From Thermus caldilimi (GTDB lineage Bacteria > Deinococcota > Deinococci > Deinococcales > Thermaceae): a stretch of 64,000 bases of DNA. Shown here piece by piece: positions 44,718-49,207 of this stretch; the first letter of the stretch is position 1; each line of letters starts with the position of its first letter. Location: assembly GCF_004684245.1 (NCBI RefSeq), contig NZ_CP038452.1, positions 744,001 through 808,000 on the forward strand, written 5' to 3'. The notes beneath the pieces were generated by a model. The model had not been told where the DNA came from, did not search any database, and was given only the letters and a program-made list of their open reading frames with translations. The position numbers and the translations under genes were made by a program.

Positions 44718-44980
44718 ACCTCTCCCAAAAACAATGGCCCACGCCATCCGGTTAGAGGGCCGGGCTGGGTGAAGCATCCCCCACGCACCTCAGGGGCCGT
44801 CACCGGATGCCAAGCCCTTGCCAGCGTGGCCAGCATCTTCCTTCTCACAGCAGGGAGGGTAACGGTCTCCCCTTACACGGCGGCAATCAACCCCACCCGG
44901 TGAATTGGCGGATATTGCCCACGGGACATCCCTCCCTTGATACCCGTGATACAGTTGGCATAGTGGGTAGGAGGTGAACG
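44718..44980. other. intergenic region with a possible folded element
   Basis: No gene was found in these 263 bases. CATCCGGT (44745-44752) pairs with ACCGGATG (44802-44809), with GGCC (44758-44761) and GGCC (44795-44798) nested inside, enclosing a G-rich loop. This may be a structured leader, a small RNA or a relic. The downstream part holds the promoter of the next gene. Confidence 0.4.
44937..44964 (+). promoter_or_regulatory. promoter of the four-helix/DOMON gene group
   Basis: TTGATA (44937-44942), 16-bp spacer, CATAGT (44959-44964). It is followed by the ribosome site GGAGGTGAAC before GTG 44981. Confidence 0.5.
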
Positions 44981-45418
44981 GTGATATCCGCCTTCAGAAG
45001 CGCCCAAACCCAAACCCAGTGGGCCTTGGAGTTCATCCGCCTGGTCATGCTTCTTCTGTGCTTGGTGGGATGGGTGATGTATCCGGTGGAGCTCCTCCTC
45101 CTGGACCACTGGACGGAAAGCTGGCAGAGTAAGATCCCCTTCTTTGTAGCCATCCCGGGGTTCATTTTCACCCTATGGGTGCTCTTTGACCGGAAAACCC
45201 CCTGGGTGAGGTGGGCCTTCATCCTCACCATGTGGGCTTCGGTGTTCACCGGTCTAATTGGGGCCTACTTCCACTTGCTCTGGAACTTTGAGGGGGAGAT
45301 GGTTTGGAAGTTTGAGGCTGCTATGAAGGCCATGGCCGGAAGCCGCCCGGTGCTGGCCGCCATGGCCTTCACCCACATGGGCGTGACCGGGCTCTTGTCC
45401 ATCTATAGGGCGAACTAG
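44981..45418 (+). CDS. four-helix membrane protein, paralog 1
   Basis: A 145-residue protein with four hydrophobic helices, starting at GTG. It contains LLDHWTESWQSKIPFFV (H43), LIGAYFHLLWN (H98) and RPVLAAMAFTHMG (H132). The next gene has all three motifs at matching positions, so the pair arose by tandem duplication. The histidines lie at helix ends and could bind heme or metal. No named family was recognised. The gene is followed by its paralog after 9 nt and then by a DOMON protein. Confidence 0.85.
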   Translation: MISAFRSAQTQTQWALEFIRLVMLLLCLVGWVMYPVELLLLDHWTESWQSKIPFFVAIPGFIFTLWVLFDRKTPWVRWAFILTMWASVFTGLIGAYFHLLWNFEGEMVWKFEAAMKAMAGSRPVLAAMAFTHMGVTGLLSIYRAN

Positions 45419-45427
45419 GAGGCAAGC

Positions 45428-45871
45428 ATGGTAGAAGCCTTGATCAAGGCCAAAACCGAGGAGGAAAGGCTCCTGGAGTTTCTCCGCGCCGTCTTCCTTC
45501 TCATCGCCATGGTGGGCTTTGCCTTCTATGGCATGGAGCACTGGATCTTAGACCACTGGACGGAAAGCTGGCAAAGCAAAATCCCCTTCTTCGTATCCCT
45601 GGTGGGCTTTCCCCTAACCCTTCTCATGTTCTTCCACCGGGGCAAGTGGGTACGCTACCCCTTCCTTTTCTGGATGCTGGTCAGCGTGCTCACGGGAATC
45701 ATGGGCGCCTATTACCACCTGCTCTGGAACGCCCAGGATGCCGAGGTAAATCTGTGGAGCCTTTCCGGCTTCCTCGAGGCCTTCAAGGGAAGCCGGCCGG
45801 TTTTGGCGGCCTTGGCCCATACCCACGTGGGCGCCGTGGCCTTTGTGGTGGGGATAACCATGCGGGACTAA
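45428..45871 (+). CDS. four-helix membrane protein, paralog 2
   Basis: A 147-residue tandem paralog of the preceding protein. The identical block LDHWTESWQSKIPFFV includes H43, followed by IMGAYYHLLWN (H97) and RPVLAALAHTHVG (H133, plus H131). Two further histidines (H38 and H70) are unique to this copy. The first helix starts near residue 20 after a charged N-terminus. Function is unknown; a heme- or quinone-linked role with the secreted DOMON protein is inference. Confidence 0.85.
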   Translation: MVEALIKAKTEEERLLEFLRAVFLLIAMVGFAFYGMEHWILDHWTESWQSKIPFFVSLVGFPLTLLMFFHRGKWVRYPFLFWMLVSVLTGIMGAYYHLLWNAQDAEVNLWSLSGFLEAFKGSRPVLAALAHTHVGAVAFVVGITMRD

Positions 45872-45884
45872 GAGGAGGTAGGGG

Positions 45885-46439
45885 ATGAGAAGAACTCTGG
45901 TCTGGCTTCTGGTTCTGGTCCTAGGCGCGGCGCTAGCCCAGGCTCCCAAGGTAGACGGCAAGATCGCAGGCGGGGAGTACGCCAAAACCTACAAGCACGA
46001 AAAAAGCGGGATCACCCTGTATTGGAGCATCGTAGGGGATACGCTGTATCTGGCCCTCGAGGGCAAGAGCAAGGGCTGGATCGGCATTGGCTTCCTGCCG
46101 GAGAAGACCGACAAGAAGAAGGGGGCAGACCAGTACCTCTTCTACATGGAAGGGGGCAAGCTGGTGGCCTTGGACATGTACCAGGTGAAGCGCACGGGAA
46201 CCCCTGTAGCCGACGAAAAGGAAGGGGGAAAGAACTCCATCCTTTCCGCCGCAGCCAGCTATGCGGATGAAACCTGGGTGGTGGAGTTCAGCCGCAAGCT
46301 GAAAACTGGAGAAGCCACGGACGTGGAGATCACCCCAGGTAAAAAGCTCATCGTCCTCCTGGCCCACGCGGGAAAGATGGACCCCAAGGAGGAGCATAAG
46401 AAGACCGAGCGCTGGTACCTCGAGGACTTCGTTTTCTAA
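45885..46439 (+). CDS. secreted DOMON-domain protein
   Basis: A 184-residue protein with a signal peptide (RRTLVWLLVLVLGAALAQA, cleavage near residue 19) and a DOMON-like beta-sandwich: VDGKIAGGEYAKTYK, ITLYWSIVGDTLYLALEGKSKGWIGIGF, GADQYLFYMEGGKLVALDMY. DOMON domains often bind heme b through Met and His; candidates are M88 or M98 with H161 (VLLAHAGKMDP). Its position after two histidine-containing membrane proteins recalls DOMON-cytochrome b561 partnerships. A tandem 20-bp repeat overlaps its stop codon. Confidence 0.82.
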   Translation: MRRTLVWLLVLVLGAALAQAPKVDGKIAGGEYAKTYKHEKSGITLYWSIVGDTLYLALEGKSKGWIGIGFLPEKTDKKKGADQYLFYMEGGKLVALDMYQVKRTGTPVADEKEGGKNSILSAAASYADETWVVEFSRKLKTGEATDVEITPGKKLIVLLAHAGKMDPKEEHKKTERWYLEDFVF

Positions 46440-46473
46440 GGGCTTCTATCCCCTTCTAAGGGCTTCTATCCCC
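46434..46473 (+). repeat. two tandem 20-bp repeats at the DOMON gene stop
   Basis: TTCTAAGGGCTTCTATCCCC occurs at 46434-46453 and again at 46454-46473 without change. The first copy contains the stop codon TAA of the DOMON gene, so the duplication added a second copy of the stop region. Confidence 0.9.
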
Positions 46474-46474
46474 A

Positions 46475-46499
46475 GGGCCTGGAATCCCCTTCCAGGCCC
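46475..46499 (+). terminator. hairpin terminator after the DOMON gene
   Basis: GGGCCTGGAA, loop TCCCC, TTCCAGGCCC: a perfect 10-bp stem followed by ACTGTCTTGTC. It has no T-run, so termination strength is uncertain. Confidence 0.65.
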
Positions 46500-46525: not shown

Positions 46526-46553
46526 TTGACTTTTACAGGCTCATAGGTACCAT
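46526..46553 (+). promoter_or_regulatory. tsuA promoter
   Basis: TTGACT (46526-46531), 16-bp spacer, TACCAT (46548-46553). The ATG follows 7 nt later, so the transcript is probably leaderless. Confidence 0.5.
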
Positions 46554-46560
46554 AAAAGGC

Positions 46561-47766
46561 ATGAATCGACCGCAGCCCATCCAGCCCCTTTATCTCGGTC
46601 TTTTTCTCCTGGCAACCCTGGGTCTTTCCTACGCCGTTTGGCTGGCTTCCGGTGTCAGGCTGGTCCTGGCCTTCTGGGTAGCCATCCTCCTAGGACTAGC
46701 CCTTTTCCACGCCAAGTTTGGCTTCGCCTCGGGGTTCCGGCGTTTCCTCCTCTCGGGGGAAAGCCGCTTGTTGAGGGCCCACTTTCTCCTCTTTGCCCTC
46801 GCCAGCCTGCTTTTCTTCCCCTTCCTGGTCCAAGGGGAGGCTTTTGGCCAGGCGGTGCAGGGGTTTGTGGTACCCGTCGGGATCGCCCTCGCCGTGGGGG
46901 CTTTCCTTTTCGGTATCGGTATGCAGCTGGGGGACGGGTGCGCCTCCGGTACCCTCTACCACACGGGAAGCGGGGACAGCCGGGGGATTTTGGTCCTCCT
47001 GGGCTTCATGGTGGGCTCTTTGCTGGGGGTCTACCACCTTCCTTACTGGCAAGCCCTTCCCGCCTGGAGCCCAGGTAGTGCCCTCACCTGGTTTCCCTCC
47101 CCCTACATGGGCCTGCTCCTCTGGATAGGCCTTTTGGCCTTCCTCTACCTTCTGGTTTCCCGGGTGGAAAAAAGGCGCACGGGCCAGGTGGTACCCCTCT
47201 GGCAACGGGAAGCCACCCACCCCCTCTTTGGCCCTTGGAGCCTGGTGGGAGGTGCCGCAGTCCTAGCCTTAGGAAGCCTCCTTATCCTCCTGCTATTGGG
47301 CCGCCCCTGGGGGGTAACGGCGGCCTTCGCCCTTTGGGGAGGCAAGCTGGCCCAACTTTTGGGGATCCCGGTGATGGATTGGGCCCTTTTCAACAACCCG
47401 GCCTTTGCCGAAAAACTAGAGCAGAGCATCCTTAAAGACTCCACCAGTGTGACCAACTTCGGGGTCTTCCTGGGAGCTTTCCTGGGAGCCACCCTGGGTG
47501 GGGCCTTTAGGCTTCAGGACCTGCGCCGCATCCCCTGGACCACCCACCTAGGGGTCTTTCTGGGCGGGGTGCTCATGGGCTACGGAGCCCGCCTGGCGGC
47601 AGGTTGCAACATCGGGGCCTACCTGGGAGGCACGGCCTCCTTCAGCCTGCACGGACCCATCTGGGGGGTTTTCGCCCTCTTGGGCACAGCCGTGGGGGTG
47701 CGGCTTAGGCCGGCCTGCCGCCTGGAAAACGAAAGCAGGACGGGGAGGAGCCTGCCTAGCACTTGA
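46561..47766 (+). CDS. tsuA: YeeE/YedE-family thiosulfate transporter (TsuA-like)
   Basis: A 401-residue inner-membrane protein with about ten helices and an internal repeat. Conserved cysteine motifs are GIGMQLGDGCASGTLYHTGSG (near residue 125) and GARLAAGCNIGAYLGGTASFSLHG (near residue 350). In TsuA such cysteines line the thiosulfate path. It could move thiosulfate or a related sulfur compound. It has its own promoter but follows the DOMON gene group. The 3' end overlaps the convergent NDUFA9-like gene by 11 nt. Confidence 0.88.
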   Translation: MNRPQPIQPLYLGLFLLATLGLSYAVWLASGVRLVLAFWVAILLGLALFHAKFGFASGFRRFLLSGESRLLRAHFLLFALASLLFFPFLVQGEAFGQAVQGFVVPVGIALAVGAFLFGIGMQLGDGCASGTLYHTGSGDSRGILVLLGFMVGSLLGVYHLPYWQALPAWSPGSALTWFPSPYMGLLLWIGLLAFLYLLVSRVEKRRTGQVVPLWQREATHPLFGPWSLVGGAAVLALGSLLILLLLGRPWGVTAAFALWGGKLAQLLGIPVMDWALFNNPAFAEKLEQSILKDSTSVTNFGVFLGAFLGATLGGAFRLQDLRRIPWTTHLGVFLGGVLMGYGARLAAGCNIGAYLGGTASFSLHGPIWGVFALLGTAVGVRLRPACRLENESRTGRSLPST

Positions 47767-48619: not shown

Positions 48620-49207
48620 CTAGGCCGCCTCGAGGACCCCTTGGGCTTCCTGCTCCAGGGCTTTCACGTTTAAGAGATAAACCTTGCGATAAGCGGTAAC
48701 GATCAGGCCCTCGTAGCGCAGGTCGGAAAGGATCTTGGACACCGACTCCCGGGTGGAGGCGGTGGCGTCGGCGATCTCCTCGTGGGAAGCGGTCACGTAC
48801 AGGCCCCGCTCGTCCCGGTAGGAAGCCGGGGTGTCGGCCAAAAAGAGGAGGTAGCGGGCAATCCGGGCACGAAGCTCACCCGATTGCAAGTGGGCCTCAT
48901 AGGCCTGCATCCTCCGCATTTGCCGGGCCAGGTTTCGCGCCACCTGTTGCAGCTCCTCGTGCCCCATCCCCCGCGGATCGTACCCCCGCACCACCGCCTC
49001 CGTCATGGCCTCAGCCGCATAGCGATACCGCTTGCCCTCCAAGGCTTCCTCGCCGAAGAAATCGCCAGGGAGGACGTGGCGCAGGGTGAGGGTACGGCCA
49101 TCCGGCAGAAGCTCCACGATGCGCACCAGACCCGACTCCAAGCGGTACAGGGTGTCGGCTCGGTCGCCGGCCAGATAGACCACTTCCTTACGGGCAATCC
49201 TTTTCAT
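48620..49207 (-). CDS. ldrP: CRP/FNR-family regulator LdrP
   Basis: A 195-residue regulator. The effector-like domain ([38 protein letters not shown]) has the CRP jelly-roll core without a full cAMP pocket, then a long dimer helix and the HTH segment [32 protein letters not shown]. In Thermus thermophilus a protein of this length and sequence beside litR (LdrP) activates carotenoid and photolyase genes in light without cAMP. It overlaps litR by 4 nt. Confidence 0.9.

Follow-up and report, generated by a model that had tools for sequence, protein, structure and literature searches.

Three adjacent genes on the forward strand of the 64,000-nucleotide stretch of Thermus caldilimi DNA analysed here (the window) form a real, conserved and unnamed module, which is probably redox in function. 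Roughly half of the Thermus species with this trio have it at a place where a TtrBA-type, tetrathionate-reductase-like enzyme lacks its usual NrfD membrane subunit. We tentatively propose that the trio is a membrane-bound electron-transfer module and that in these species it may serve the NrfD-less TtrBA-type molybdoenzyme of the tetrathionate reductase clade, a reading that we hold to be quite possible if somewhat short of probable. Gene A (44981..45418, GTG start) and gene B (45428..45871) encode paralogous four-helix membrane proteins of 145 and 147 residues, and gene D (45885..46439) encodes an exported DOMON protein of 184 residues, which is predicted to be a probable periplasmic haem-b carrier. 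The three had been described as a module in an earlier note on this DNA, and all of them are indeed real open reading frames at these positions. A literature search found no description of the A-B-D module.

The trio is preceded on the forward strand by ruvC, and its genes are separated by 9 bp (A-B) and 13 bp (B-D). Upstream of A lies the promoter element ATACCCGTGATACAGT (44940..44955, +) with an extended -10 of the form TGnTACAGT, which has a single match in the whole genome; most Thermus orthologues of A are preceded by a similar element, whether or not they are linked to ttrA. The earlier suggestion that one promoter and short gaps tie the three genes together agrees with these observations. 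Just 3' of D, two copies of the direct repeat GGGCTTCTATCCCC (46440-46475) are followed by a strong hairpin (46475-46499). The gene directly downstream of the trio encodes a YeeE/YedE-type sulphur transporter (46561-47766, +; PF04143, E 1.9e-59); it has its own promoter-like site at 46526 and is found behind the trio in most Thermus, G007 and G022 being exceptions. A CRP-family regulator encoded at 48620-49207 on the reverse strand matches LdrP (NCBIfam, 370.7 bits) and is a possible regulator of genes nearby.

The A/B pair was found in 21 of 81 genomes, namely that of the window, 17 more from its genus, two from elsewhere in its family and one from a different family in the order, and the order A-B-D is intact in all 21; a single distant A/B homologue occurs in G049. 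A profile search through 111 genomes of the phylum added further Trueperaceae, in which D is present wherever the contigs with A/B extend far enough. Outside the phylum, a scan of genome contigs detected the full trio in an Armatimonadetes MAG (L141:3341-5868), where it is preceded by a haem-type EB_dh protein (PF09459, E 5.5e-26; no PDB match) and two unnamed small membrane-like proteins. Since the family occurs in only one of the 43 genomes of that group and the other 42 are without it, this copy is probably a transfer. The gene-neighbourhood survey among the 81 relatives, proposed in the earlier note as a check, thus found the trio unbroken, and the module is met again in further families and a second phylum. 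Viral contigs contained no relative, plasmids gave no match for B or D, and a plasmid search with a distant relative returned Rhodococcus hypothetical proteins only. Neighbours in the wider family are mixed and comprise two-component systems, helix-hairpin-helix (HHH) proteins, Rieske proteins, cytochrome c and b561-like proteins. At three loci (L084, L086, L087), distant four-helix relatives lie immediately beside secreted HHH_3 proteins, and a similar pair lies beside a two-component system on Rhodococcus plasmids (L153, L154). The two-component and HHH neighbours of these distant relatives suggest that the wider four-helix family is not always redox.

In ten Thermus genomes a ttrB-ttrA pair, here called type 2, immediately precedes A in the same orientation, at a distance of 73-86 bp from ttrA to A (eight loci measured). 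This link lies outside the window and is therefore not visible from the window sequence. The type-2 proteins score best in NCBIfam as TtrA (E 4.5e-122) and TtrB (E 7e-53), both below the equivalog cut-offs, and three genes of their loci are transcribed divergently from them, encoding a histidine kinase, a regulator and a phosphonate-binding-like protein. No NrfD gene is found between or beside type-2 ttrB and ttrA. The sister type-1 loci have the order ttrB-nrfD-ttrA (NrfD E 3.8e-39), and the genome of the window possesses a complete operon of this kind elsewhere (L117, G000:C1:1384845-1390265); the type-1 ttr operon shows no association with the trio (Fisher p = 1). Type-2 TtrA forms one clade (support 100/100), and all 12 genomes that encode it carry A-B-D (Fisher p 4e-9 across 81 genomes and 0.003 within the genus, values that ignore relatedness and physical linkage). 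In one of them, G028, type-2 ttrA and A-B-D are on separate contigs. The eight genomes with only the type-2 locus have a single NrfD gene each, which in the two contexts that were read stands in a gene cluster recognised by its order as Alternative Complex III, so that we take it to be ActC. The redox context that had been suspected from the window is thus seen in ttrBA beside the trio in Thermus and in the EB_dh protein of the Armatimonadetes MAG. The type-2 locus was also considered as a TtrABC complex, which it resembles in having ttrB and ttrA by NCBIfam and a divergent sensor set. This was rejected, as no ttrC (NrfD) accompanies ttrB and ttrA, A-B-D stands beside them in some genomes only, and no ttrBA adjoins the trio in the window.

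The partnership of the trio with ttrBA is not obligatory, since the trio also occurs without it. Type-2 TtrA is absent from seven trio-bearing Thermus species, that of the window included, and from G048 and G065, and in the window neither ttrBA nor a remnant of ttrBA or of the sensor genes is detectable beside the trio. Nor do the trio and ttrBA form one obligate operon, because a separate promoter stands before the trio and ttrA is set apart from A by an inverted repeat (read by eye). Upstream of A-B-D in G022 (L125:7688-8349, +), a histidine kinase and a response regulator are decayed and 77-79% identical to the intact genes, from which we conclude that ttrBA was lost in this genome. The D gene of G022 carries a 1-bp deletion outside any homopolymer that shifts the frame; as the genome is a draft, the deletion may reflect either gene decay or an error in the draft sequence. 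Observations of this kind also bear on the leading alternative, in which A-B-D works by itself in the periplasm, as a redox or stress module with a substrate of its own, and ttrBA became its neighbour in Thermus by happenstance and is served in trans by another quinol donor. The conserved promoter of the trio, its retention where ttrBA is absent and its solitary occurrence in Trueperaceae, G048 and the seven Thermus species all speak for this explanation. Against it stand the type-2 TtrBA of the eight genomes without any NrfD other than the ActC-like one, the co-occurrence in 12 of 12 genomes with one of them unlinked, and the frameshift in D of G022 after the loss of ttrBA. We therefore regard an independent module as rather unlikely, while it is the alternative that fares best.

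A and B are 47% identical and, as had been reported for the two paralogues, share an identical block, the 16 residues LDHWTESWQSKIPFFV. Three histidines match between the window proteins, at positions 43, 98/97 and 132/133 (A/B), and had been read as a pattern that fits heme or metal binding. H43 and H97/98 are invariant across the A/B orthologues. The third histidine is replaced by N or Y in the majority of A proteins from Trueperaceae and has no counterpart in distant relatives, and should for this reason be dropped, so that the pattern of three histidines as such is not supported. Invariant residues in A numbering are E37, H43, P53, G91, G94, H98 and N102. In a set of 35 sequences of A, B and distant relatives, invariance is limited to E37, H43, P53, G93, H97, N101, P124 and G135 (B numbering), and the Rhodococcus plasmid homologue, read by eye, has retained the Glu, the Asn and the two His. 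B possesses H38 and H131 as additional conserved histidines. The loop charge pattern, as read by eye, suggests a periplasmic orientation for H43 and H97.

Profile searches of both paralogues against Pfam and NCBIfam, which had been set beforehand as a test, returned no known family, DoxX and YqjE included, and comparison with Pfam, NCBIfam, PHROGs and PDB sequences yielded sub-threshold noise only. This accords with the earlier statement that no four-helix family of this kind is known. The AF2 model of B (pLDDT 94.8) is a four-helix bundle with helices at 11-40, 48-69, 73-105 and 125-144. Fold searches with it retrieved generic four-helix bundles (best Foldseek E 0.24) and no convincing PDB relative; NrfD and cytochrome b folds were absent among the matches listed for B, which is not evidence of absence. 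In the tree, the B sequences, with the Armatimonadetes copy among them, group in a single clade (100/100), from which it follows that A and B had duplicated before the module spread. We propose that A and B are ancient tandem duplicates which together would provide eight helices in two four-helix bundles.

In line with the earlier note, the conserved histidines raise the question whether A and B are small b-type cytochromes in their own right, in which H43 and H97, with H38 and H131 in B, would bind haem and pass electrons to D. The invariance of the first two across the family, the further conserved pair in B and the known pairing of DOMON with b561 (CYBDOM, PMC10784544) favour this idea, and in the trio, as in CYBDOM, a DOMON redox domain on the exoplasmic side goes with a membrane protein. 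However, A and B match no cytochrome b family model of Pfam or NCBIfam, b561 included, and they are separate polypeptides of four helices each. Moreover, helix 1 of the B model ends just before H43, and the same His pair occurs in relatives that have no haem partner nearby. As this pair is kept in distant relatives beside two-component systems and HHH proteins, it need not mean haem, and we consider a cytochrome nature of A and B improbable.

D is a true DOMON protein, as judged from its sequence and predicted fold, and is related to the haem-b gamma subunits of molybdoenzymes. It matches PF03351 (DOMON) with E 1.8e-18 and 67.4 bits, over the curated Pfam cut-off of 32.7, and EB_dh with E 2.3e-8 and 34.8 bits, barely above the cut-off of 33.3. 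Together with a signal-peptide-like N-terminus, the DOMON match bears out the view that the third gene encodes an exported DOMON protein. In fold searches with the AF2 model (pLDDT 87), the top match was the DOMON domain of dopamine beta-hydroxylase (DBH; Z 14.8), followed by EBDH gamma (13.9), NXR-C (12.3) and the CDH cytochrome (12.2); CBM9 modules also scored. The beta-sandwich of D is common to the CDH cytochrome and the DBH DOMON domain (about 145 residues, rmsd 2.9). The Met/His ligands that had been put forward for D proved half right, in that H171 is invariant in 20/20 sequences and M165 is present in 19/20. By the usual DOMON motif, the canonical Met position of D appears to be occupied by an invariant Lys78. 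A profile search with D matched NXR-C at E 2.4e-6, and its invariant His171 aligns with Lys305, which together with Met155 ligates haem b in NXR-C (PMC8387239), at only moderate per-residue alignment confidence. The Met partner as second haem ligand of D was not located in this alignment, and an hhalign comparison between D and the EB_dh protein next to the trio in L141 matched over 21 columns only, in which the Met ligand was not placeable. D thus resembles the gamma subunits of type II DMSO-reductase-family enzymes (EBDH gamma, NXR-C) in its exported DOMON-like fold (Z 12-14), in the sequence match and in a conserved residue at the column of the Lys305 ligand. It differs from them in that His replaces Lys and the canonical Met is not found, and the trio-linked enzyme belongs to the TtrA clade and not to type II. 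We infer that D probably carries haem b as a periplasmic electron carrier. A non-redox role, with D as a ligand-binding DOMON protein (compare the DBH top match and the CBM9-like folds) and A/B as membrane scaffold or sensor partner, could draw on the two-component systems and HHH proteins beside distant relatives, but has as little probability as the cytochrome reading in view of the NXR-C match, the His on the haem-ligand column and the redox neighbours in Thermus and the Armatimonadetes MAG.

For the electron-transfer module that we favour, we suggest that A and B form a two-part quinol-oxidising anchor, whose periplasm-facing site around E37/H43/H97/N101 would most likely oxidise menaquinol. 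The electrons would then be passed to the putative haem b of D and/or directly to the iron-sulphur subunit, which would be TtrB where this is present. In genomes without type-2 ttrBA, including that of the window, the module would have to serve another acceptor. What is shown is the conservation and linkage of the trio, the lack of NrfD beside type-2 ttrBA and the fold and ancestry of D; the quinol site, the haem in D, a physical complex and the direction of electron flow are all parts of the inferred scheme. The model for the anchor is NrfD, a protein built from two four-helix bundles in which His/Asn/Tyr serve the quinone site on the P side (PMC8076601). NrfD-like subunits (PF03916; TtrC, PsrC, ActC) are the membrane partners of TtrBA-type enzymes and have eight or more helices, two four-helix repeats and a polar P-side His/Asn site. 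A two-bundle architecture of this type would agree with the four-helix bundle modelled for B and with A as its paralogue. In contrast to NrfD, A and B are split into two four-helix polypeptides and paired with a DOMON protein; they have no Pfam match, and hhalign against four TtrC proteins gave a probability of 1%. As sequence kinship was looked for and not found, we think that A and B may mirror the role of NrfD by convergence and not as members of its family.

The quinol-linked anchors of periplasmic molybdoenzymes are known from very few families only (NrfD, NarI-like). It is conceivable, if more doubtful than the service to TtrBA itself, that A and B are the first members of a novel family of membrane subunits for quinol oxidation that has no kinship with NrfD. 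Together with the DOMON haem protein they would provide a modular electron input for different periplasmic reductases. If this is true, an unrelated, split two-bundle anchor with a DOMON carrier would mean that quinol coupling has been reinvented, and a membrane family without Pfam or NCBIfam entry that spans Deinococcota to Actinomycetota would receive its first function. As Thermus is genetically tractable, the idea is directly testable in these organisms.
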